Shown: positions 2,236 through 16,195 of the stretch, piece after piece
Position numbering within the stretch: the first letter of the stretch is position 1
How the letters are laid out: every line of letters starts with the position of its first letter
Source of the DNA: Oscillospiraceae bacterium
Lineage (GTDB): Bacteria > Bacillota > Clostridia > Oscillospirales > Oscillospiraceae
Assembly (NCBI GenBank): GCA_015068495.1
Contig: SVKL01000010.1
Span: 1 to 64,000 of the forward strand
Length of the DNA stretch: 64,000 nucleotides
Direction: 5' to 3'
Position numbers and translations under genes: made by a program
Notes under the pieces: generated by a model
Told to the model about the DNA's origin: nothing
The model's input: the letters and a program-made list of their open reading frames with translations, nothing else
Databases searched by the model: none

Positions 2236-3018
2236 TCATCCCTTAATCGGCACAGCAATCTGTGTGATGTAATCGCCACTATTTTTACCACGGTTGGGAG
2301 GGCCTTCCAAATAGATGGAACGGAAGGAACCGGTGGTTTCGACATTGTTTTCTTTTACATAAGCCATCAGCGCACGAATAGCCGTTGTTGTTCCTTCGTA
2401 GGGGCCACGGTAATAGATACAGAGTGCCGGTGTTTCGGCAAACTCCATACGTTCAGGACCATCAAAGCTATCCTCTACGGGAATGCAGCACATTAAATCA
2501 AGCTTGTCAAGAGATGTGGACATACGCATGGTAAACATTCGGCTAAGCATAGACATTTTGCCTGTACGAGCGGCGGCAATATATGTATCTCGCAGTACGT
2601 TTGCCGCATTACCCACATTATCACAAACATACTGACGGGAAAAGCATACCTGCCGAGGAAGGGTGGTCTTACGAACTGTTAGATCCCCTTGCTTTGCGGA
2701 ACGCACCTGAAGCATCTGTATATTTCGATCCAAGGATGCACGAAGCTCCATGAGGCGCTCTAAATAAGTGTCGATGTTCTCAGTGTCGTAATAGTAGTCC
2801 TGCACTTCTTTTAGAGATAAACCCAACTGCTGCAGGGAACGGATTGAACGAATCTGTGTCATATTGTCCGCAGAATAATACCGGTATCCGCTTTCCTCAT
2901 CTTTAACAGCAGGAGTTAAAAGGCCCATATCCTCGTAAACAATAAGTGTCTTACGGGTGATGCCCATAATCTTCGTTACTTCACCGACTTTGAATAAATT
3001 TTCGGCGTGCTTTTTCAA
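2236..3018 (-). CDS. MerR family transcriptional regulator with GyrI-like effector-binding domain
   Basis: N-terminal FKVGEVTKIMGITRKTLIVYEDMGLLTPAVKDEESGYRYYS MerR HTH; C-terminal GyrI/AraC_E_bind-like region. Confidence 0.92.
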   Translation of the reverse strand: MKKHAENLFKVGEVTKIMGITRKTLIVYEDMGLLTPAVKDEESGYRYYSADNMTQIRSIRSLQQLGLSLKEVQDYYYDTENIDTYLERLMELRASLDRNIQMLQVRSAKQGDLTVRKTTLPRQVCFSRQYVCDNVGNAANVLRDTYIAAARTGKMSMLSRMFTMRMSTSLDKLDLMCCIPVEDSFDGPERMEFAETPALCIYYRGPYEGTTTAIRALMAYVKENNVETTGSFRSIYLEGPPNRGKNSGDYITQIAVPIKG

Positions 3019-3063
3019 TTTCCAATCACCTCGAATTTTTTTGGAGAAATTTGTAAAAGTCTA

Positions 3064-3094
3064 TTGACTTGAACCTTCGGGTCTAAGTTATAAT
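3064..3094 (+). promoter_or_regulatory. MerR-type promoter/operator, rightward
   Basis: TTGACT (3064-3069), 19-bp spacer, TATAAT (3089-3094); imperfect dyad CTTGAACC-ttc-GGTCTAAG inside the spacer. Confidence 0.7.
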
Positions 3095-3139
3095 TGTATT
3101 GTATCATATTATACCTTTCTTTGCAATAGAAAGCGGATT

Positions 3140-3416
3140 TTGGATGAATGGGATGTTGAGAGAAATCTGCCCCTTACCCCGGGCGATGTAGCACACACCA
3201 GTGATATTCCGGTATGGTGGAGATGCAAAAAGGGGCATTCCTGGTGTACCCAGGTCCGAAGCCACTCAAGAAGCTCCACAGGCTGCCCGGTATGCCGCGG
3301 AAAAACTGGAAGAGAAACGGCAACGGAAGCTTGAAGCCGCCCGTAAAAAGCATTTATCTCGCAAGCCTTTGGCGGCAAACGAAAAAGTAATTAACATAAC
3401 GGAGGAAGAGTTATGA
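3140..3416 (+). pseudogene. Remnant of a treble-clef zinc-ribbon (DUF4379-like) protein, probably frameshifted
   Basis: One repeat LDEWDVERNLPLTPGDV..WWRCKKGHSW....GCPVC in one frame; a plausible Lys/Arg-rich continuation (AAEKLEEKRQRKLEAARKKHLSRK) in another frame ending at 3416. Confidence 0.5.
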
Positions 3417-4495
3417 GAATGTCGAAGAACAAAATCATTATGGTGGCAATCATTGCACTTGTTGTCATCGCACTTGCAGTGACATTGGTGGTTCTCTTAA
3501 ACAGAGACAACAATGACCTGCCCCCTACGGACGGCACGACCCAGAGCACCGAACCGTCCGGCACGGAAGGGACTGACCCCACCGCGGGCACAACAGCTCC
3601 CACCACAGAAACGACTGAGCCGACTACCGAATCTACTGAGCCTAAGCCTACCGAGCCTAAGCCCACAGATCCCAAGCCTACTCAGACGACAAAGTACACT
3701 GTTACTTTTAAGGACTGGGACGGCAAGGTTCTGAAAACCGAGAAGGTAGAAAAGAGCAAGGCTGCTACCGCACCTGCTAATCCTACCCGTGCAAACTACA
3801 CCTTTACCGGTTGGGACAAGTCCTTTAGCAAGGTTACTTCTGACTTGGTGGTTACTGCTACCTATAAGCCTGTAGAAACCGAACCCACTCAGCCCACTGT
3901 CTACACTGTCACCTTTAAGGATTGGGACGGCAAGGTTTTGAAAACTGAGCAGGTAGAAAAGGGCAAGGACGCTACCGCACCTGCTGCCCCCACCCGTGAG
4001 CATTACAATTTTGCAGGTTGGGACAAAACCTTCAGCAGTGTCACCTCTGACTTGGTAGTTACTGCTACATATACCACTACCAAGCTGATTATCTCCGCGG
4101 AATCCGTTACCGTGAACAAGGGTACGGGTGAAGTGACTATGAATATCCGTGTGGTAAACAACCCCGGTATTATGGGCGCTGTTCTGAAGGTTTCCGTGAA
4201 CGATGATGTGCTTGCCGTTTCCGGCGCAAATAAGACCGGCTATCCCGGCCTGACCCTGACCGCTCCCGGCTCTGCGGCAACCTCTTCTCCCTACACCTTT
4301 ATGCTGGACAGCATGGATCTTTCCGCTGACGACAAGAAGGATGGCACACTGCTGACCATTACCTTTAAGATTAAAGATACCTCCGTTACCGGCAAGTACG
4401 ATGTGAAGTTGTCCTGCAACCAGGGTGGTATCTTTGATGAAAACTACAACGACCTGAACGTTACTTTCGTAAACGGATCGATCACTATTCAGTAA
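3413..4495 (+). CDS. Membrane-anchored cell-surface protein: N-terminal TM, Thr/Pro linker, two InlB-type B repeats, C-terminal cohesin domain
   Basis: TM IIMVAIIALVVIALAVTLVVLL; two VTFKDWDGKVLKTE..GWDK.F..V.SDLVVTATY repeats; C-terminus AESVTVNKGTGEVTMNIRVVNNPGIMGAVLKVSVNDDVL...GTLLTITFKIKDTSVTGKYDVKLS matches the cohesin pattern. Confidence 0.82.
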   Translation: MRMSKNKIIMVAIIALVVIALAVTLVVLLNRDNNDLPPTDGTTQSTEPSGTEGTDPTAGTTAPTTETTEPTTESTEPKPTEPKPTDPKPTQTTKYTVTFKDWDGKVLKTEKVEKSKAATAPANPTRANYTFTGWDKSFSKVTSDLVVTATYKPVETEPTQPTVYTVTFKDWDGKVLKTEQVEKGKDATAPAAPTREHYNFAGWDKTFSSVTSDLVVTATYTTTKLIISAESVTVNKGTGEVTMNIRVVNNPGIMGAVLKVSVNDDVLAVSGANKTGYPGLTLTAPGSAATSSPYTFMLDSMDLSADDKKDGTLLTITFKIKDTSVTGKYDVKLSCNQGGIFDENYNDLNVTFVNGSITIQ

Positions 4496-4513
4496 GCAGG
4501 AGGGAATTAGACA

Positions 4514-7500
4514 ATGAAGATGCAGCAAAATTGGCTTAAGCGGCTGATTGCTCTGGCGCTGGTCATTGTATCTCTTTTGCAATGGTTACCCGCAGAGACA
4601 ATCGCAGCTGCGATTGAAAATGCTCGCTCTACAACCGTCACAGCCGGCGATGTCAACGGCGACGGCACTGTAGACGCAAAAGATGTAAACTTAATTCGCC
4701 GTCATATTGCAGGCGGCTATAATGTCAATATCAACACACTGGCAGCAGAAGTAAATGGTGACGGTGTGATTGATGCAAAGGATGTCAACCTGACCCGCCG
4801 TTATATCGCAGGCGGCTATGATGTAGAACTGAAGCCTTGTGTTCTTTACACTGTCAAGTTTGAAACTGGCGGCGGTACTACATACGAAGATAAGGAAGTT
4901 CCCCAGGGCACTGTTATCAGCTCCTTCACCAAGAATCCTTATTGGGCAGATCATCTGTTTATGGGTTGGTGCTATGACGCAGAGCTGACCCAGAGCGTTG
5001 GCAGCAAAGATGTTGTCACCAAGGATATGACCTTGTATGCCAACTATCTGGAGCAGGTTCCTCTGGAAACCTTGGAGACACCCAACTTTGCAAGCGCTGA
5101 GGATGTAAATACCAACTTCACCATTACTGTGGTATCTACTGATCCGGAAATGACCGCGCAGGAAGTCCAGGCGGCGATTGCTGCGACCAATCTTGCCGAT
5201 CCCGACGCAAGCGGCTTTATCTCTGTTTCCGGCTCTAACGGCACTTATACCATTACCAGTGTTGGTGGATTCAACGCAGGCGGCACATATCGTATTTCTC
5301 TGAACAGCGATAAGCTGACCTTTAAGGATCAGCCGGAATCTGCCCGTGACTTTAACTTCACCGTCCATCGTGATGAAGTTATGAATCTTGACACAAATGC
5401 GGATGCAAAGTACATCCCCTTGGGCCAGATCAGCAACATCACCAACAACGGTCAGAGCGTATCCACTTTGGATATTGCTCTGTACGAAGTCAATGGCGAT
5501 AATATCTCTGTAACCGAGATGTCCACCGGCACATTTACCTACACCGGCACAACCTCCGTGCAGGTTGGCGATATTGTCTGTATTTATGAGGGCGCACTTC
5601 CCTCTGAAAGAGATCAGAACACCCCCAAGGATCAGCTGGGTGATATGGCGTTCCTGGAGATCACCGCTGTAAACGGCAGCACTTATACATATCAGAGCGC
5701 CGACACAGAAGATGTCCTCTTTATGCCGGATGTTCTGCCTATGCCCGAAGCTGCTGATACAGACAGCGATGCAAATACCATTACTGTGGAGAACAAGTAT
5801 CTGGACTACTCTGCGGATATGTACTCCTACATGAATCTGGACAGCCAGACTGTTGTGGGTGCTGGTGACTTCCTGGCGTTCTACACCGGTGACATTGCGG
5901 TACAGAGCGGCGAAAATGCTGCTGCCCTCACCGGCTACGGTAAGATCACCGCAGTAAGCACCAATGCCGATACCACTACCATCACCTTTATCAAGGTTAC
6001 TTGGGAAGAAGTGGAATCCTCTATGGATGTATATGCCAAGGAGGAAATGACCGCCCAGGAGCTGCTGGAAGGTATGGACACCGAGAATATGGAGTCCGAG
6101 ATCGAGCAGCAGGCGCTTAACAGCGGATTTGCCAATGAAGCTGCCCTGTATATGACCTCCCTGGCTCTGGCTACAGATAACTTCACACAACTTAGTGAGA
6201 ATATGAACCTTGCCGATTACAAGGTTACGCTGAAGGATGGCAAGACCGTTTCTCCCGAAGAGCTGCAGCTGATGGCTGGCGGCAAGGTGGAAGTTGAGAT
6301 CGAAGAGACTACCATTGAAGCAATCGTCGGTCTTTCCCCCACCCATTTGGGCGACATCAAGGGCACCAATGCCACCAAGAAGGGCATTGTGATCGGCCTG
6401 GATGTGACCGTTGTTTTCACCGTTGCAGCAAAAGGCATTGACGGTCATTTGGAGATTACTGTCACCGGTAGCTTTATCGAAGAAGTTGGACTTGACTTTG
6501 TTGCCGATGCAGAAGCAATCTGGGATGTTTGGGGCATCTTCCCCTACATTTCTGACTTTAGAGCAACTGCCAATGTGGATGTTCTGAACTACACCGCTGT
6601 TTCCTTCAACGCAACTATGGTCACGAAGGAAAATGAGGACGAGGAAGAGGAAGACGGAGAAGACGGCGACAACGACAACGACGATGAAGACGAAGAAGAA
6701 GTTGACATTGCCGAAGAGATCAAGGGCCTGCTGGAGAGCATGACCGCAGGCGACGAGGAAGACGATGAAAGCCAGGAAGAGGCTGAGGAAAACGAGAACA
6801 AGCTGATTCAGCGGTACTCCGAAATGCTCAACCAGGAATCTGATTGGATTAACATCGTAGAGTACAATATTACTGAGGTTAAGAAGAGCGTTCCCTTTGA
6901 GATTCCGCTTATCAACATCAGCTTTAAGGCAGATTTTGTGGTCAAGATCGATGCCAGTATTTCCATTGGCTTTGACTTTGAATATGTGGAAGGCACACGC
7001 TATGTATTCACTGTTGATGTAAAGGCAGGCGAGGTCCGTTCGAATACCATACAGCTGCAGGAGAAGGCATACCAGTTCTGCTTCTATGCTATGGGCCGCA
7101 TTGGTCTGAAGGCAGGTGTTGAATTGGGCTTTGGTATCTCTGTGATCGATGAGGCGGTGGCTGCGGTCTATGTTACTGCGGAAGCCGGTGCATACACAAA
7201 ACTGTATGGCTATTTCTTCTATGAGCTGAAATACACAGAATCCCAAGGTAAGACTTCCAAATACAGCGGTGCTTTGCTGATCCAGATCGGCATTTACTTA
7301 GAGGTAGGTTTGGAAGCAACTGCGGTTGGAGGGTACTTCTCCACAGAGGTTACATTCCTGGACAAGGAATGGCTGCTGTATCAGGCAGGTATCCGTCAAA
7401 ATGTGCTGGACTTTGTGACAACGCAGGAAGAGATGCCTGAGATCGCTTTGAAACAGTATGTTCGCAAAGCATATATTCCGAACAGCGTCTTTAGTATGAG

Positions 7501-10500
7501 CTATTTGGATCTTCTGACAGGTGACGGAGAAACGGCGCTGTATAGCGATTGGAATGACCCGTCAGTAAAAGACGATTTCCGGTCAGGTGACAATTTTGAA
7601 ATCACCATGACCAATAAGAAATTCTCTTATAATCCTCAAACAAATGCCATTTGGGTCAATCCGGATGCGGATGATGCAAAGCTGGAAGGTGAAATGATCA
7701 TCACCTTTAAGCGGCAGCCCATGACCTTTACCTCTAAACCTCTGCAGCGTAGGATCTCTCTGTATTGGGATAATACAAGAGATGGTTATATGATCGTTCC
7801 CAATACAAATGGCGGCTCTTACATTCCTATGATTATTAAGGGATATGAGGAAAAGTTGGAGAAGCCTGCCGATCCTGAAAAGCCCGGTTATAATTTCGCC
7901 GGTTGGTATAGCGATGAAGATCTGACTGTTCCTTATACATTCCCTGCAACGATGCCGGCATCCGATACCAACATTTATGCTAAGTGGGAAGCCCGTACCG
8001 ATATTCCCTACACTGTGGAGCATTATCAGGAGAATTTCCGCTCCGGTGAATATGAACTTACAGAGATTGAAGAGTTCAAGGGAACTACTGATACAACAGT
8101 TACCCCCGCAGTAAAGAATTATACCGGTTATGTGGCTCCTGTACAGGCGCAGCTGAAGGTGGAAGCTGACGGCAGCGCGATTCTCCGTTACTACTATGCT
8201 TTGGAGCGTCACAATGTCACCTTCGATGCCGGTCGAGTAGATGGTGTTGAAGTCACTGCAGAAGAGGATGTTACCTATAACCTGAAGTACGGTGCTAAGA
8301 TTACCGCCCCTGTTATGGCTATGAAGGGTTATACCTTCGTTGGTTGGACTGTGGACGGCACGACCCAGGCAACCGTAGCCGAAACTGTTGGTACGCAGGA
8401 TCTGACCTACACCGCAATGTGGGAGAAGGAAGCAAACACCGAGTACCGCATTGAGTATTATGTCCAGCAGGCAGACGGTCGCTACACCTTGCAGCACATG
8501 GTCAAGGATAAGACCGTTACCGGCAAGGTGTTCACAGAGGAATATCTGCGTAGCTTGTTGATCGACGGCACTGCTGCCGACGATAAGTACATCCAGGTAA
8601 ATGCTGTAGCCTTTGAAAATGTGACCGTTAAGGGCATTGTTACCAAGGAAGCTGCAGTAGATGGCAACGGCAAGACAGTTATTAAGGTCAACTATGGCAG
8701 AATCAAGCACACATTGACCTTTGATCCCAACTATCCCGGCGCAGAACCCATTGTTAAGGATATGTTCTATGGCGCTGAGATCGTTGCACCCCAGAATATG
8801 ACCCGTACCGGTTATACCTTTGTGGGTTGGGAAGTGGCTCCCGTGGCTCCTGTAATGCCTGCTGAAAGCCTGACCTATCGAGCAGTATGGCAGGCAAATA
8901 CCGATACTGCCTATAAGGTAGAGCATTACCAGGAGCAGCTGGATGGCTCCTATGCTTTGGTGGATACCGATAATGAGACCGGCACTACCGAAACTGAAGT
9001 TACTCCTGCTGTGAAGAATTACGAAGGCTTCACCGCTCCTCAGACCCAGACCGTGACCGTTAAGGCTGACGGCACACTGGTGGTGGAGTATAAGTACACC
9101 CGTAATTCTTACACCATTGCCTTTGATGCAGATGGCGGCGAGGTTGAGCCTTCTTCCATCACTGCTAAGTATGGCGAGTCCATTACTCTGCCCGCACCTA
9201 CCCGTGAGGGCTACGGCTTTGACGGCTGGTACAACGGCACTGTAGCCTTTACTAGCGCAACTATGGTTGCTGAAAATCTGACCCTGACCGCACAGTGGAG
9301 CGCAGGCAAGATCGGCTACACCGTCAACCACTATCAGCAGAATGTGGACGGAAACGGCTACACCCTGTATAAGACCGATAGCGGTACAGCTTCTATGGAC
9401 GAGGAGGTTACTCCCAGCCTTAACAGCTACGAAGGCTTTACCGCTCCGGGCAGCACCACTACCATTACCATCAAGGCCAGTGCTGCTGAAAATGTGGTGG
9501 ATTACTACTACACCCGCAATCAGTACACCTTGACTTGGGAATTGGGTATTGGCAGCGCCGAGGGACAGACCTATACCTCCGGCAAGGTTTATTACGGAGA
9601 AGAAGTGAAAGCGCCTGTTCCCGCAAAGGCAGGCTACACCTTCACTTGGAATACCACACCCGTGACCGTGATGCCTGCAAACGATCTGACCTATACCGCA
9701 AACTGGAAAGAAAATACCTATACTGTGATCTTCCACGCAAACAACGGTACGGACGAGCAGATCACTAAGGAGCTGGCATACAGCGCAGCTCTGGGCGAAA
9801 ACACCTTCCAGTATGCAGGCTATACCTTCGCAGGCTGGACAGATGGTGTCAATACCTATACGGAAAGCACCAAGCTGAGCCAGATCATCACCGGCAGCAC
9901 TACCACACTGAATCTCAATGCTGTGTGGCAGTCTCAGAGCTTCACCATCACCTATGTGGGTGTGGAGCCCGGTGAACACAACAACGCAACGGAGTATACC
10001 GAAGGCAATGCGGTATCCCTCACCGCTCCCAATGCCCGTCCCGGCTACACCTTTGCCGGCTGGTATGACAACAGCAGCTTCGATGGCAGCCCTGTGGATG
10101 CCATTACAGCAGGCTCCATTGGCAACAAGACCTTCTATGCCAACTGGCAGGAAAATGTTTACCACATTGTGCTGAATCACAATGATGGCACCAACATGAA
10201 GGACACCTACGCAAACCTGCCTTATACCGGTGAGTGGGTCACGACTGCACCTACCCGTTCCGGTTACACCTTCGCAGGCTGGGCACTGTCTGCTGATGGT
10301 GCTGTGGTATGCAGTGACGGCGCAAGACTGACCGCCTTTGTGGATGCCAATACCGCCAGCGGCGCAGTGATCGAGCTGTTCGCTAAGTGGAATGTGGTGG
10401 AATACACCATCACCTATGATCTGGGTATGCACGCAGCCTCCACCACCCATAACAATCCCACCAAGTATTCCATCGAAACCGGCGAGGATATTGTTCTGAA

Positions 10501-11854
10501 GGATCTGACACCCAAGAGCGGCTTCCGGTTCGGTGGTTGGTACGACAATGCGGAGTTTACCGGTGAGCGGATCAACACCATCGTCTTTACCAACACTGTG
10601 GACTATAAGCTGTATGCCAAGTGGGAGCATCCCGGTGTGTACTCTATTACAGCAACGGAAGAGACTCTGGCAGGCGGTCCTACCCTGACCGAAGGCTTCA
10701 ATGCTACCTTTACTGTAAAACGGACCATTCCCGAGGGAGCTGTGGCTACCTCTGATGTGCAGACAGTCTATGTCCGTACTCTGAACGGTACTGCTTATGG
10801 TACTACTCCCGAGATGATCAACGAAGAAGGCCAGGATCAGTTCCACTTTGCCCATACCGATCCTTCTCAGGAAGGCAGCGGTTATCTGGTATTCGGCCCT
10901 GACAGCGGTCTGGAGCAAATCATCACCGTCAGCGAAACGGATATGGAAAACTGGGATTATATGGCTTCCAGCTACCGCATCGGCGAGGCTGCCCGCTACT
11001 ACTTCGTGCAGATATACAAGGTGCAGGCAAGCAGCGGTGAAAATGCTGCCATCGATGCCCAGCAGGGCAAGGAGCAGCGGGATCTGCCTCTGACTCCCTA
11101 TGAGCTTCTGGAAACTGCTTACACCGATTGGACAGGCTTGCAGGCATATTTCAGCGATGGAAGCACGTGGAAGGAGGTAAAAACCTCCAAGGTATATACA
11201 CAGTATTACAAGGTTGAGGACATCCTTGGCAAGGCCCTTGCAAGCTACGCCTATACATCTGCCTCTAAGATCGATTATCGGATCGGTGCCACCAGATCGG
11301 GCAGTTCTTCCTCGGAAGTGATAATTTATAACAAGGACGGCTACGAGATGGGTTGGCTGACTGGCTGGCAGTCCATGTATTCGACGAAAAGAACATGGAA
11401 GGATTGGAATCTGAGTTCTAAGGAGCGGTTCGCGTTTAAGGGCAGATCCGGAAAAAATCCTGTCACTTTAGGCAATGTAGAGATGATGCTGAACGATGAA
11501 CAGTCGGCAGCTGCCGTGAATGCTTCGCCCTTGGCGGCTACGGCTTACAGTGCAGGCGAGGAAATTATGCTCACTGTGATCTTTAATGAGCTCATCAGCG
11601 AAATCGACACCGCAAACGGCGTTCCCACTCTGGACCTTTCCGGTACTGAGCTGAGCGCATACCTTGAAAATGCAGTATATGCTGAAAGCGGCGTGGGCAC
11701 CAATGCTTTGGTGTTCAAGGCAACTGTAAAGCAGGATCTGGATGCCAATGAAGTGCTGTATATCAACAATATTCTTGTAAATGCGACAGCAGATACATTT
11801 GCAACCGCCATCGGCACACTTGCTGCAGTGGTCAAAGACATCATGGGCAACTGA
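4514..11854 (+). CDS. Giant secreted surface protein (2446 aa): signal peptide, N-terminal dockerin, central region with acidic segment, MucBP-like and InlB B (Flg_new/Listeria-Bacteroides) repeats
   Basis: Signal-like MKMQQNWLKRLIALALVIVSLLQWLPAETIAAA; dockerin duplex GDVNGDGTVDAKDVNLIRRHIAGG / AEVNGDGVIDAKDVNLTRRYIAGG; many GYTFAGWY...YAKW repeats; no LPXTG-like C-terminus. Confidence 0.9.
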   Translation: MKMQQNWLKRLIALALVIVSLLQWLPAETIAAAIENARSTTVTAGDVNGDGTVDAKDVNLIRRHIAGGYNVNINTLAAEVNGDGVIDAKDVNLTRRYIAGGYDVELKPCVLYTVKFETGGGTTYEDKEVPQGTVISSFTKNPYWADHLFMGWCYDAELTQSVGSKDVVTKDMTLYANYLEQVPLETLETPNFASAEDVNTNFTITVVSTDPEMTAQEVQAAIAATNLADPDASGFISVSGSNGTYTITSVGGFNAGGTYRISLNSDKLTFKDQPESARDFNFTVHRDEVMNLDTNADAKYIPLGQISNITNNGQSVSTLDIALYEVNGDNISVTEMSTGTFTYTGTTSVQVGDIVCIYEGALPSERDQNTPKDQLGDMAFLEITAVNGSTYTYQSADTEDVLFMPDVLPMPEAADTDSDANTITVENKYLDYSADMYSYMNLDSQTVVGAGDFLAFYTGDIAVQSGENAAALTGYGKITAVSTNADTTTITFIKVTWEEVESSMDVYAKEEMTAQELLEGMDTENMESEIEQQALNSGFANEAALYMTSLALATDNFTQLSENMNLADYKVTLKDGKTVSPEELQLMAGGKVEVEIEETTIEAIVGLSPTHLGDIKGTNATKKGIVIGLDVTVVFTVAAKGIDGHLEITVTGSFIEEVGLDFVADAEAIWDVWGIFPYISDFRATANVDVLNYTAVSFNATMVTKENEDEEEEDGEDGDNDNDDEDEEEVDIAEEIKGLLESMTAGDEEDDESQEEAEENENKLIQRYSEMLNQESDWINIVEYNITEVKKSVPFEIPLINISFKADFVVKIDASISIGFDFEYVEGTRYVFTVDVKAGEVRSNTIQLQEKAYQFCFYAMGRIGLKAGVELGFGISVIDEAVAAVYVTAEAGAYTKLYGYFFYELKYTESQGKTSKYSGALLIQIGIYLEVGLEATAVGGYFSTEVTFLDKEWLLYQAGIRQNVLDFVTTQEEMPEIALKQYVRKAYIPNSVFSMSYLDLLTGDGETALYSDWNDPSVKDDFRSGDNFEITMTNKKFSYNPQTNAIWVNPDADDAKLEGEMIITFKRQPMTFTSKPLQRRISLYWDNTRDGYMIVPNTNGGSYIPMIIKGYEEKLEKPADPEKPGYNFAGWYSDEDLTVPYTFPATMPASDTNIYAKWEARTDIPYTVEHYQENFRSGEYELTEIEEFKGTTDTTVTPAVKNYTGYVAPVQAQLKVEADGSAILRYYYALERHNVTFDAGRVDGVEVTAEEDVTYNLKYGAKITAPVMAMKGYTFVGWTVDGTTQATVAETVGTQDLTYTAMWEKEANTEYRIEYYVQQADGRYTLQHMVKDKTVTGKVFTEEYLRSLLIDGTAADDKYIQVNAVAFENVTVKGIVTKEAAVDGNGKTVIKVNYGRIKHTLTFDPNYPGAEPIVKDMFYGAEIVAPQNMTRTGYTFVGWEVAPVAPVMPAESLTYRAVWQANTDTAYKVEHYQEQLDGSYALVDTDNETGTTETEVTPAVKNYEGFTAPQTQTVTVKADGTLVVEYKYTRNSYTIAFDADGGEVEPSSITAKYGESITLPAPTREGYGFDGWYNGTVAFTSATMVAENLTLTAQWSAGKIGYTVNHYQQNVDGNGYTLYKTDSGTASMDEEVTPSLNSYEGFTAPGSTTTITIKASAAENVVDYYYTRNQYTLTWELGIGSAEGQTYTSGKVYYGEEVKAPVPAKAGYTFTWNTTPVTVMPANDLTYTANWKENTYTVIFHANNGTDEQITKELAYSAALGENTFQYAGYTFAGWTDGVNTYTESTKLSQIITGSTTTLNLNAVWQSQSFTITYVGVEPGEHNNATEYTEGNAVSLTAPNARPGYTFAGWYDNSSFDGSPVDAITAGSIGNKTFYANWQENVYHIVLNHNDGTNMKDTYANLPYTGEWVTTAPTRSGYTFAGWALSADGAVVCSDGARLTAFVDANTASGAVIELFAKWNVVEYTITYDLGMHAASTTHNNPTKYSIETGEDIVLKDLTPKSGFRFGGWYDNAEFTGERINTIVFTNTVDYKLYAKWEHPGVYSITATEETLAGGPTLTEGFNATFTVKRTIPEGAVATSDVQTVYVRTLNGTAYGTTPEMINEEGQDQFHFAHTDPSQEGSGYLVFGPDSGLEQIITVSETDMENWDYMASSYRIGEAARYYFVQIYKVQASSGENAAIDAQQGKEQRDLPLTPYELLETAYTDWTGLQAYFSDGSTWKEVKTSKVYTQYYKVEDILGKALASYAYTSASKIDYRIGATRSGSSSSEVIIYNKDGYEMGWLTGWQSMYSTKRTWKDWNLSSKERFAFKGRSGKNPVTLGNVEMMLNDEQSAAAVNASPLAATAYSAGEEIMLTVIFNELISEIDTANGVPTLDLSGTELSAYLENAVYAESGVGTNALVFKATVKQDLDANEVLYINNILVNATADTFATAIGTLAAVVKDIMGN

Positions 11855-11876
11855 TACCCCGACAAAATGAAACAGG

Positions 11877-11906
11877 AAGCGCCATAGCCCGTCTATGGCG
11901 CTTCTT
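11877..11906 (+). terminator. Rho-independent terminator
   Basis: aagcgccatagcccgtctatggcgcttcttt. Confidence 0.75.
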
Positions 11907-11927
11907 TACAAGAAACGGTGAGCAATT

Positions 11928-12737
11928 ATGAACAAACGATTGGCGCAGATCATTTGCGCTGTGCTGTGTGTCTGCCTTGTGGTAGCAGGTGTATGGTTTT
12001 TCTTAAAAAAACAAAATAGTGAGCCGGTGGTCATTGCCGTCATAGACACGGGGATTTCCTCCAAAGCGATCCCTGCCGATCACATCCTGGAGGGCAAGAA
12101 CTACTATGACCCGGCTCTTTCCACCGAGGACACCTACGGGCACGGCACTGCGGTGGCATCTGTGATACTAAAGCATTTCCCCCAGGCGCGGCTTGTGCCC
12201 TTAGTCAGTAATGTCTATGATTCCGGCAAAATAGAGCAGGTCACGGGTGATGTGTTCGCCCAAATGATCCGGGATGCCATCGATGTGTACCATTGTGACA
12301 TTATCAATGTCAGCGCCGGTCTGATCCTGGATAAGACCCCCATCCGTGAAGCCGTTGCCTATGCCGAGGAGCAGGGTGTTCTGATCGTTGCATCAGCGGG
12401 AAATGACTATGCCCAGATCGGTGATTTTGCCTATTTCCCGGCAAGCTATGAAACGGTGTTTGCCGTTGGCTCTGTTACCAAGGACGGCACTTCCGTATCC
12501 GAATTTTCTCAGCGGGGCAAATGGGTTGACATCTATACCTGCGGTGAAGATGTACAGATCGCCACCCTAAGCGGCAACACAAAGCAAAGCGAAGGCACTT
12601 CCTATTCCGCTGCCCGCATCACAGCCGAAGCCGCAAAGCTGCTGCAAAAAGATTCTGACCTCACCGCCGCCCAACTCCGGGAAAAACTCCTTGGCTCTGC
12701 CCAGTCCCTCCCGGACGGCAGAAAATATATTCCGTAG
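11928..12737 (+). CDS. Membrane-anchored S8 (subtilisin-like) serine peptidase
   Basis: D: VIAVIDTGIS; H: YGHGTAVAS; N: VASAGND; S: EGTSYSAAR; N-terminal TM. Confidence 0.93.
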   Translation: MNKRLAQIICAVLCVCLVVAGVWFFLKKQNSEPVVIAVIDTGISSKAIPADHILEGKNYYDPALSTEDTYGHGTAVASVILKHFPQARLVPLVSNVYDSGKIEQVTGDVFAQMIRDAIDVYHCDIINVSAGLILDKTPIREAVAYAEEQGVLIVASAGNDYAQIGDFAYFPASYETVFAVGSVTKDGTSVSEFSQRGKWVDIYTCGEDVQIATLSGNTKQSEGTSYSAARITAEAAKLLQKDSDLTAAQLREKLLGSAQSLPDGRKYIP

Positions 12738-13493: not shown

Positions 13494-13679
13494 ATTCTGC
13501 GGTTATTATACAATAAAAGCTTCGAAATTTCAATGTGACCGATTGGAAATGCTATGTGGTAGAAAAAAGGAAAAAGATATGCTATAGTAAAAATAATCCA
13601 ATCCTTTGTAAGATTTCCCTTTTGTTTCCCGTCAATATAAGTGAAAAGGCCTTTTGCAAAAGAATCGGGAGGTGACCAT

Positions 13680-14231
13680 ATGGAGGACCGTCAAATTATT
13701 GCGCTGTTTTGGAATCGGGATGAGCAGGCAATTTCCCAATCCCAAAAGAAATACGGGAGATTCTGTCACACCATCGCTTATCGCATTCTGAGTTCCTATG
13801 GAGACAGCGAGGAATGTGTCAACGACACGTGGCAAAAAGCTTGGAATGCAATCCCACCGGAAAAGCCCGCTGTTTTGCAGGCATTTTTCGGACGCATTAC
13901 CCGCAATCTGGCGCTGGACCGCTATGCCTACAAGGCAGCCAAAAAACGGAATATCCATTTGGAAGCCGCGATGGAGGAGTATTGGGAGTGCATCCCCGAC
14001 GGAAAGCCGAATTTAGAGGATTCTCTGGCGATGAAAGACCTGTTAAACCGCTTTTTGGCTGACTTGGATAAGCAGACCCGTATTATTTTTCTCCGCAGGT
14101 ACTGGTATGCTTGCTCCATAGGGGAGATTGCACGGTCGGTGGGCTTAATGGAGAGCAATGTGAGTGTGATTCTCCATAGGACGCGAAAAAAGCTGAAAGC
14201 CTATCTTGAAAAGGAAGGGATGTTTATATGA
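13680..14231 (+). CDS. ECF-type RNA polymerase sigma factor
   Basis: Sigma70 region 2 (ECVNDTWQKAWNAIPPEKP...FFGRITRNLALD) and region 4 (IGEIARSVGLMESNVSVILHRTRKKLKAYL); RBS before MEDRQI. Confidence 0.9.
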   Translation: MEDRQIIALFWNRDEQAISQSQKKYGRFCHTIAYRILSSYGDSEECVNDTWQKAWNAIPPEKPAVLQAFFGRITRNLALDRYAYKAAKKRNIHLEAAMEEYWECIPDGKPNLEDSLAMKDLLNRFLADLDKQTRIIFLRRYWYACSIGEIARSVGLMESNVSVILHRTRKKLKAYLEKEGMFI

Positions 14232-16195
14232 AGAAAAAATGGTTTCACACCTTAGAATTGGTGGATGAACAATATGTTGCTGAGGCAAATCCAAATAAAA
14301 AAACTGTTCCGTTACGGAAAAAACGAATTGTTATGACAGCGCTGGCAAGCGCCGCTGCCTGCCTTGCGCTTACTGTAACCGGCTTGTGGCTGTTTATGCC
14401 CTATGACAACGCCCCTCCCAGTATAGAGCACCACGAAAAGAACGACTACTACGCTGTGATTGAAAAGCTCAACGATTTCAAGAAAGAGCCTTTGCAATAC
14501 AATAACAATTTTGATATGATTGTGGACGATGTGGGAGATATGTTTTTGGGCGGTGTAAAGGGCGATGCTGCCAACACCGCAGTGCCCGAGGCAGCAGCGC
14601 CGGGTGCTGATCGGGGTGACGGATACTTTGAGACGAACACCACCGGCACCAGTGGCACCGGTAGTAGCACCTACGAGGAAATCACCGACAATCAGGTGGA
14701 GGGTATTACGGAAGCTGACCGCATCAAACGCTCAAGCACCCACATCTACTATCTGGATGGCAGCACGCTGAAGATTTTCAATATCGCAGGTTTGGATTCC
14801 CTGCAGGTGGGCAGCATTGCGCTGGAGGAAACTGCCTATGAAGCCTACCAGCGGCAGTGGGCATTCTATCTGTCTGCGGACTGTAAGACCGCAACGGTGT
14901 TCACCAAGTACCAAAATGCGAAAAAACAGCTTTGCGTTGGCGTGATTGCTGTGGATGTCAGCGATCCGGCAAATCCTGTGGAGAAAAACCGGCTGGAGAT
15001 TACCGGCAACTACCTGTCCTCCCGTGTGACCGACGGCAAGATCCTGCTGATGACAGAGTTTGTGTTGAACAAACAGACAATGGATTTTGACAAGGAGGAA
15101 ACCTTCCTGCCGCAGATTAACGGAGAAAGCATTCCTTCCGATTGCATCGTGCTGCCGGAGGATGTCAATTCCGCCCGCTACACTGTGGTAATGAAGCTGG
15201 ATGAAAACACCCTTGCAACCGAGGGTCAGACCGCATTCCTGTCCTACACCGAGGATATCTACGTGTCCCACGACCATATTTTCCTGACCCACGTATACGC
15301 AGATGTGCAGAAGCAGGAGAATGAGAATATCCGCAATGCTATGACGGAAATCACAGCTTTGCGCTACAAGGACGCTTTTGAAAAGAAAGGCACAGTGGTG
15401 GTCCGCGGCTATGTGAAGGACCAGTGGAGTATGGACGAATACGAGGGTATTCTCCGGGTGGTCACCACCACCAACGCCACAACGGTACACGAAACCTACG
15501 CAGGCAGTTCTGTTTCTGCAGAGATTTTGGTCACTGCCACCGGCAACTCCAACGCAAGCCTTTACTGTATCAACCTGAAGGATTTTCAGGTTGTGGCAAG
15601 TGTTGAGGACTTTGCTCCTCCCAGAGAGGAAGTGCAGTCTGTGCGGTTTGACAAGGAAACGGCTTATGTGTGTACCTCCATCGAGATGTCGGACCCGGTG
15701 TTCTTCTTCGATTTGTCGGATCTGAACAACATCACCTATAAGGATACCGGGAAGATTGACGGCTTCTCTTCTTCTTTGGTGAATTTCGGTGACGGGTATC
15801 TTCTGGGTATCGGACAGGAAAACTGGAACAACTTTAAGGCAGAAATCTATACGGAAACCGAAGACGGGGTAGAGGGCTTCTGCAAGTACGTTTTGGAGAA
15901 TGTGGACTATTCTGCCGATTACAAGTCCTACTATATCGACAGAGAAAATCAACTGCTGGGCTTAGGCATTACAGATTTCAGCGGAGACAGCGTTGTGGAC
16001 TACACCACAGGCCAAAAGGGGAATTCCCGTTATATCCTGTTGCATTTCGACGGATATAATTTGGTGGAGCTGATCAATGTAGAGCTGAAGGGCGACAATA
16101 ACCTCAAGCGCGGTGTCCTTGTGGAGGGCTATCTGTATCTGTTCGGCAAGGAAGACTTCCAAGTACTTGCCACACCCTTTGTAGTTCCCAATTAA
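14228..16195 (+). CDS. Membrane protein with extracellular beta-propeller domain; putative regulator/anti-sigma partner of the adjacent ECF sigma
   Basis: ATGA overlap with sigma gene; short cytosolic N-terminus, TM (VMTALASAAACLALTVTGLWLF), then a region resembling secreted beta-propeller proteins (PF09826 type). Confidence 0.82.
   Translation: MKKKWFHTLELVDEQYVAEANPNKKTVPLRKKRIVMTALASAAACLALTVTGLWLFMPYDNAPPSIEHHEKNDYYAVIEKLNDFKKEPLQYNNNFDMIVDDVGDMFLGGVKGDAANTAVPEAAAPGADRGDGYFETNTTGTSGTGSSTYEEITDNQVEGITEADRIKRSSTHIYYLDGSTLKIFNIAGLDSLQVGSIALEETAYEAYQRQWAFYLSADCKTATVFTKYQNAKKQLCVGVIAVDVSDPANPVEKNRLEITGNYLSSRVTDGKILLMTEFVLNKQTMDFDKEETFLPQINGESIPSDCIVLPEDVNSARYTVVMKLDENTLATEGQTAFLSYTEDIYVSHDHIFLTHVYADVQKQENENIRNAMTEITALRYKDAFEKKGTVVVRGYVKDQWSMDEYEGILRVVTTTNATTVHETYAGSSVSAEILVTATGNSNASLYCINLKDFQVVASVEDFAPPREEVQSVRFDKETAYVCTSIEMSDPVFFFDLSDLNNITYKDTGKIDGFSSSLVNFGDGYLLGIGQENWNNFKAEIYTETEDGVEGFCKYVLENVDYSADYKSYYIDRENQLLGLGITDFSGDSVVDYTTGQKGNSRYILLHFDGYNLVELINVELKGDNNLKRGVLVEGYLYLFGKEDFQVLATPFVVPN

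Follow-up and report, generated by a model that had tools for sequence, protein, structure and literature searches.

How is a secreted protein of 2446 residues kept on the cell when its C-terminus carries neither a hydrophobic segment nor a sorting signal that hydropathy or the sequence would reveal? The question is raised by three genes, all on the plus strand, in a 64,000-nucleotide stretch of Oscillospiraceae DNA from a gut bacterium (hereafter the window), which lies on contig C26 of a 1.77-Mb genome that is 93% complete and in 40 contigs. The original prediction had proposed that a membrane-anchored cohesin tethers a giant dockerin-bearing protein, with an adjacent protease as a possible release factor, and all three open reading frames were found where it had placed them. 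The explanation that we favor is that the first two genes probably encode the two components of a dedicated surface tether, a cohesin-dockerin pair serving where S-layer homology (SLH) domains would otherwise anchor the giant; the binding, the surface location, and the functions are what we infer from the sequences.

The anchor gene and the giant

The first gene (positions 3413 to 4495) encodes a protein of 360 residues. Its sole hydrophobic segment by hydropathy is a transmembrane (TM) anchor at the N-terminus (residues 1 to 33, positions 3413 to 3511), which is followed by a Thr/Pro stalk with two InlB-type repeats (PF09479, 3695 to 4075) and by a C-terminal cohesin (residues ~225 to 360, 4085 to 4492). 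Hydropathy and Pfam thus agree with the architecture that had been proposed from the sequence. Residues 232 to 359 matched the Pfam cohesin family (PF00963) with 28.8 bits against a curated cut-off of 24.1, and a genome search with the same profile returned window positions 4106 to 4489. The AF2 model of this domain (pLDDT ~96) has a jelly-roll fold, and its top Foldseek matches were cohesins, the best being the archaeal structure 2xdh (TMt 0.81, E = 3.8e-10). Profile and fold together identify the C-terminus as a cohesin. Upstream of the anchor gene, a short open stretch at ~3143 to 3340 (plus strand; WWRCKKGHSWCTQVRSH...GCPVCRGK) resembles a zinc-ribbon fragment.

The giant is encoded in the same frame at positions 4514 to 11854, with 18 bases between the preceding stop and its ATG. 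This spacing, together with an AGGAGG ribosome-binding site ahead of the ATG (4498 to 4503), makes coexpression of the two genes likely. A signal peptide is followed by a type-I dockerin (4643 to 4807), which consists of two near-identical Ca loop-helix segments (AKDVNLIRRHI and AKDVNLTRRYI). Dockerin_1 matched residues 44 to 98 with 45.2 bits (cut-off, 22.9), and the genome-wide PF00404 search gave 51.5 bits; the Ca loops that had been read by eye were thereby recovered by a profile. The second loop (AEVNGDGVID) departs mildly from the pattern, having Glu rather than Asp at ligand position 1.

Beyond the dockerin, the original prediction of about 2300 residues of InlB/MucBP-like repeats did not hold, whereas the signal peptide, the N-terminal dockerin, and the absent sorting signal were all borne out by Pfam and hydropathy. 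A MucBP identity was rejected, as no Pfam match to that family was obtained anywhere in the giant, and the repeats share the protein with two other regions. A first InlB-type repeat (4847 to 5041), in which similarity to SLH-bearing giants begins at residue 112, precedes a nonrepetitive region (residues ~190 to 1093) that contains a conserved core (residues ~408 to 1093, 5735 to 7792). An InlB-type repeat array follows (residues ~1094 to 2046, 7790 to 10621), and the protein closes with a unique tail (residues ~2047 to 2446, 10652 to 11851) in which neither an anchor nor a Pfam match was found. Pfam also returned no SLH domain for this giant. The core matched no Pfam family and no PDB fold below an E value of 0.01, so that we claim no function for it, and "adhesin" is a guess. 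Its AF2 model (mean pLDDT 70, pTM 0.55) contains very long strands of 26 to 38 residues, which may be a novel fold or an artifact of the model.

Anchor modules across the giant's family

The core, of about 690 residues, defines a family of surface proteins of 2000 to 4000 residues, termed core giants herein, in which it follows an N-terminal anchor and an InlB-type repeat. The window giant fits this definition (E = 1e-243 against a profile to which its own core contributed; independent relatives, to 2e-75), and homologues of the core were detected in 4 of 136 genomes from the genus and 13 of 394 from the order. All eight SLH-type giants carried a triple SLH at the N-terminus (E = 1e-27 to 1e-34). 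A dockerin occupied that position in the window giant and in four others (genomes G231, G213, G176, and G291), and homology among the giants begins directly after the SLH triplet or the dockerin. For example, residues 112 to 2045 of the window giant are collinear with residues 263 to 2204 of the SLH giant from G269 (37% identity over 2053 blastp columns); the respective start points follow the end of the dockerin (~109) and the SLH triplet.

In a phylogeny of the core, the window giant was sister to the SLH giant of G402 (support, 100/99) and nested among SLH giants, and the other four dockerin giants formed a separate clade (100/99). A single origin of all dockerin giants was rejected (p-AU = 2.8e-5), also when long branches were removed. 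These sequence relationships indicate at least two independent exchanges between SLH and dockerin, and the natural reading, which depends on the root, is that the window lineage would have gone from SLH to dockerin. The tether of the other four dockerin giants may differ, since no separate anchored cohesin was found within the stretch examined around them and since, in two cases, the giant itself contains a cohesin. Those two, in G231 (L130, giant at 2885 to 9490) and G291 (L133, giant at 5004 to 11795), combine an N-terminal dockerin with a cohesin towards the C-terminus, on contigs that end inside the genes, and such giants could self-associate. The core giants of three further genomes of the same genus (G005, G131, and G133) had no SLH; those of G005 and G131, whose starts are intact, had no dockerin, and by eye the G005 giant begins like a lipoprotein.

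SLH domains bind a pyruvylated epitope that is made by CsaB (PMC6030368). If a dockerin stands in for SLH, then genomes with dockerin giants need not retain the SLH system, and this prediction held. The six SLH-giant genomes (G356, G498, G220, G402, G269, and G387) had 39 to 96 SLH matches each, with CsaB above cut-off in five, compared to 0 to 4 SLH matches and no CsaB above cut-off in the five dockerin-giant genomes, among them the window genome (G000) with 3 SLH matches. Fisher tests gave 0.002 for SLH counts and 0.015 for CsaB, values that treat related genomes as independent and include some genomes that are 68 to 73% complete. Neither SLH nor CsaB was found in G005, G131, and G133.

The third gene of the locus (11928 to 12737, 269 residues) encodes a subtilase of the S8 family (PF00082, 110.7 bits) with aligned and intact Asp, His, and Ser motifs, a single TM segment, at the N-terminus, and no propeptide. 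It was rejected as a type VII secretion mycosin (TIGR03921, 133.9 bits against an equivalog cut-off of 278.75). A strong RNA hairpin with a stem of 12 to 14 bp (11876 to 11904; -23 kcal/mol, z = -3.8) occupies the gap behind the giant and may lower or uncouple expression of the protease. S8 genes lie 11 to 73 bases downstream, on the same strand, of six core giants (window, G005, G131, G133, G387, and G498); they were missing from the examined flanks of the giants in G356 and G220 and of a second giant in G498, and several other contigs end there. The protease is always attached, by a TM segment (window and the G005 group), by a lipobox-like motif (G387), or by three SLH domains (G498). Because it accompanies giants whatever their anchor, including those with SLH (G387 and G498) or with neither dockerin nor cohesin (G005, G131, and G133), the protease belongs with the giant family, and its membership in the cohesin-dockerin unit was rejected. 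The membrane-anchored protease described originally is thus present with an intact triad, but synteny ties it to the giant and not to the tether; most likely it would trim or shed the giant. Just downstream (13641 to 16195), genes for an ECF sigma factor and a membrane-anchored beta-propeller protein (PF09826) were observed.

Fit of the pair and competing explanations

By reading the in-frame DNA through two stops, the cohesin, linker, signal peptide, and dockerin could be modelled as one chain of 258 residues. AF2 (18 sequences) returned a pTM of 0.76; the pLDDT was ~96 in the cohesin and ~92 in the dockerin but 54 to 77 over most of the linker. By our own estimate, the cohesin alone would hardly yield more than 140/258 = 0.54, and cohesin plus dockerin (202 of 258 residues) about 0.78; the value obtained is near the two-domain expectation and so supports a defined mutual placement of the two domains, in a model in which the linker forces proximity, which has no non-cognate control and comes from a program trained on such complexes, and which is silent on specificity.

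Among 37 genomes of the genus, at least 33 of 55 cohesins had a dockerin within 10 kb, with no more than 1.5 expected, and cohesins were more similar within loci than between them (39 versus 33%, permutation p = 0.005). Over 8 to 10 loci, similarity of anchor cohesins correlated with similarity of the neighboring dockerins (r = 0.62 to 0.75, p ≤ 0.0007), a correlation that can stem in part from shared ancestry. The closest relative of the window pair, in G016, is again adjacent (cohesin 62% and dockerin 53% identical). In G016 (two loci), G096, G033, and G099, the anchor protein has a C-terminal cohesin, which in many cases is borne by a stalk of collagen-like sequence or repeats, and the next gene starts with a signal peptide, a cohesin, and a dockerin. 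Such cohesin-then-dockerin starts beside an anchored cohesin were observed at G016:C39 (L066:1978-8649), L067, L069, L070, and L072; as monovalent adaptors, these proteins could be joined head to tail into chains on the surface. Genes for histidine kinases and LytTR-like regulators were seen by eye near related giants or cohesin-dockerin pairs (L126:206-2199, L134:1607-3638, L069:4424-6504, and L070:5215-7492), possibly reflecting quorum-type control of surface display. Taken together, the fused-chain model, the adjacency within the genus, the similarity correlation, and the SLH/dockerin swap support the originally predicted two-component, noncellulosomal surface assembly, in which we infer that the two proteins bind.

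The pair is not alone in its genome. A scan for both modules found six Pfam cohesins and six dockerins at or above cut-off, spread over several loci in a ratio of ~1:1, which makes the pair one of several. Contig C10 encodes a dockerin giant of 2214 aa together with two smaller products, one with both cohesin and dockerin and one with a cohesin, and C11 encodes a cohesin-dockerin-GDSL protein. On C20, two TM- or PKTG-anchored cohesins (G000:C20:1-20000, L015) lie beside a transglutaminase and a 2801-aa LRR giant whose duplicated dockerin-like C-termini were recognized by eye, below the Pfam threshold. Elsewhere on C20 (G000:C20:48001-68000, L016), two giants with C-terminal dockerins adjoin two TM proteins of 388 and 672 aa, the N-terminal domains of which are weakly cohesin-like (hhalign probability 50%) and are possibly divergent cohesins.

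In cellulosomes, a dockerin often accepts more than one cohesin of its type. With six Pfam cohesins in the genome, the giant's dockerin might bind other or several of them (C10, C11, and C20), which would make the giant a client of a small shared scaffold. We consider this unlikely, since the dockerin recognition residues vary with the locus (AK/AK in the window, SL at C10/C11, RD/RN at C20a, and IS at C20b), the similarities of neighboring cohesins and dockerins track one another, and none of the genome loci read encodes a multi-cohesin scaffoldin, the maximum being one cohesin per protein. Nor was any plant-wall hydrolase found among the Pfam-scanned dockerin proteins (GDSL, transglutaminase, LRR, and unknown). 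Both results speak against a cellulosome in this genome, at 93% completeness. The second also bears on whether the pair is a decayed remnant of a cellulosome-type system that has no tether function today. The order does contain cellulosome-like genomes with 19 to 64 dockerins, and the Glu at ligand position 1 of the second Ca loop could be read as decay, but both reading frames are intact, over 2446 residues in the case of the giant, a close pair has been kept in G016, none of the Pfam-scanned dockerin proteins is a plant-wall hydrolase, and dockerin replaced SLH more than once; we regard a remnant as very improbable.

The clip might instead act in trans and link molecules or cells, with the giant attaching to the anchored cohesins of a neighbor, an arrangement of the kind proposed for methanotrophic archaea living in consortia with sulfate reducers. 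Two ORFs of G016 (1101 and 1109 aa) bear both cohesin and dockerin and could chain, the G231 and G291 giants likewise combine the two modules, and syntrophic adhesion by cohesin and dockerin has been suggested (PMC10553843). The window giant, which has no cohesin or other anchor, would be lost from the cell without a tether in cis, and its gene lies 18 bases from that of the cohesin in one genome, which leaves a role in trans improbable, though less so than decay.

Under the dedicated tether that we prefer, the product of the first gene would be a membrane-anchored stalk with a cohesin on its outer tip. The giant would be secreted and then kept on the cell when its N-terminal dockerin docks into that cohesin, so that the clip would perform the job done in related giants by the triple SLH through a pyruvylated wall polymer. 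The InlB-type repeats would form a long spacer, or a surface for contacts, by which the core is displayed outside the wall, and the S8 protease, at the membrane, would lie within reach of the giant to trim or shed it. Tentatively, and with somewhat less than even confidence, we extend this reading to CsaB-poor gut Clostridia, in which locus-specific cohesin-dockerin pairs may be a general system of giant display, gained repeatedly by N-terminal anchor-module swaps after loss of SLH and CsaB.

Relation to known cohesin-dockerin and SLH systems

To our knowledge, cohesin-dockerin pairs have been studied almost solely as the glue of cellulosomes. A family in which SLH or dockerin occupies the same position suggests a testable function, namely surface anchoring without a wall polymer, and core-giant and related loci are a source of matched cohesin-dockerin pairs, possibly of distinct specificity. 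Both modules occur together in 4333 human-gut MAGs (PMC12997984), and there is little explanation for why thousands of gut genomes carry them. In the open-licence papers searched, we met no account of a protein family in which dockerin takes the place of SLH, nor of a link to absent CsaB. The parts themselves are already known: anchoring cohesins (PMC11557425), noncellulosomal pairs (PMC12997984, PMC9012536, PMC10553843), and LRR and transglutaminase proteins that bear dockerins (PMC2930009).

Cellulosomes are anchored to cells by nonSLH-anchoring scaffoldins with a single cohesin and by TM-anchored proteins that likewise have one cohesin, such as those of Lachnoclostridium sp. MSJ-17 (PMC11557425), and there, as proposed for the window, a cell-bound cohesin protein captures a dockerin-bearing partner. 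The window pair differs in matching one cohesin to one adjacent nonenzymatic giant, and neither cohesin arrays nor fiber-degrading dockerin enzymes were seen in its genome. Ruminococcus flavefaciens also carries dockerins on noncarbohydrate proteins (LRR, transglutaminase, and serpin proteins, and 19 proteins with an N-terminal dockerin; PMC2930009), a cargo similar to that of the C20 locus, but its set sits in a large cellulosome genome with ~200 dockerin proteins.

Cohesin-dockerin use beyond cellulose degradation is known from Clostridium perfringens, whose glycoside hydrolases form pairwise complexes rather than scaffolded ones, and from the mucinolysome of Limousia (PMC12997984); the partners there are glycan-degrading enzymes, whereas the window partner is a giant that is nonenzymatic by Pfam. 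ANME archaea and their partner sulfate reducers encode likewise noncellulosomal cohesin/dockerin proteins with a proposed role in adhesion or surface organization (PMC9012536, PMC10553843); they are not reported to show a replacement of SLH on one protein family, and no dedicated anchor-giant gene pair is known to us from them. A further parallel to the putative clip would be SLH anchoring itself (PMC6030368), with the same job, the same N-terminal position, and the same giant family, the difference being that the clip joins protein to protein and SLH binds a pyruvylated secondary cell-wall polymer.
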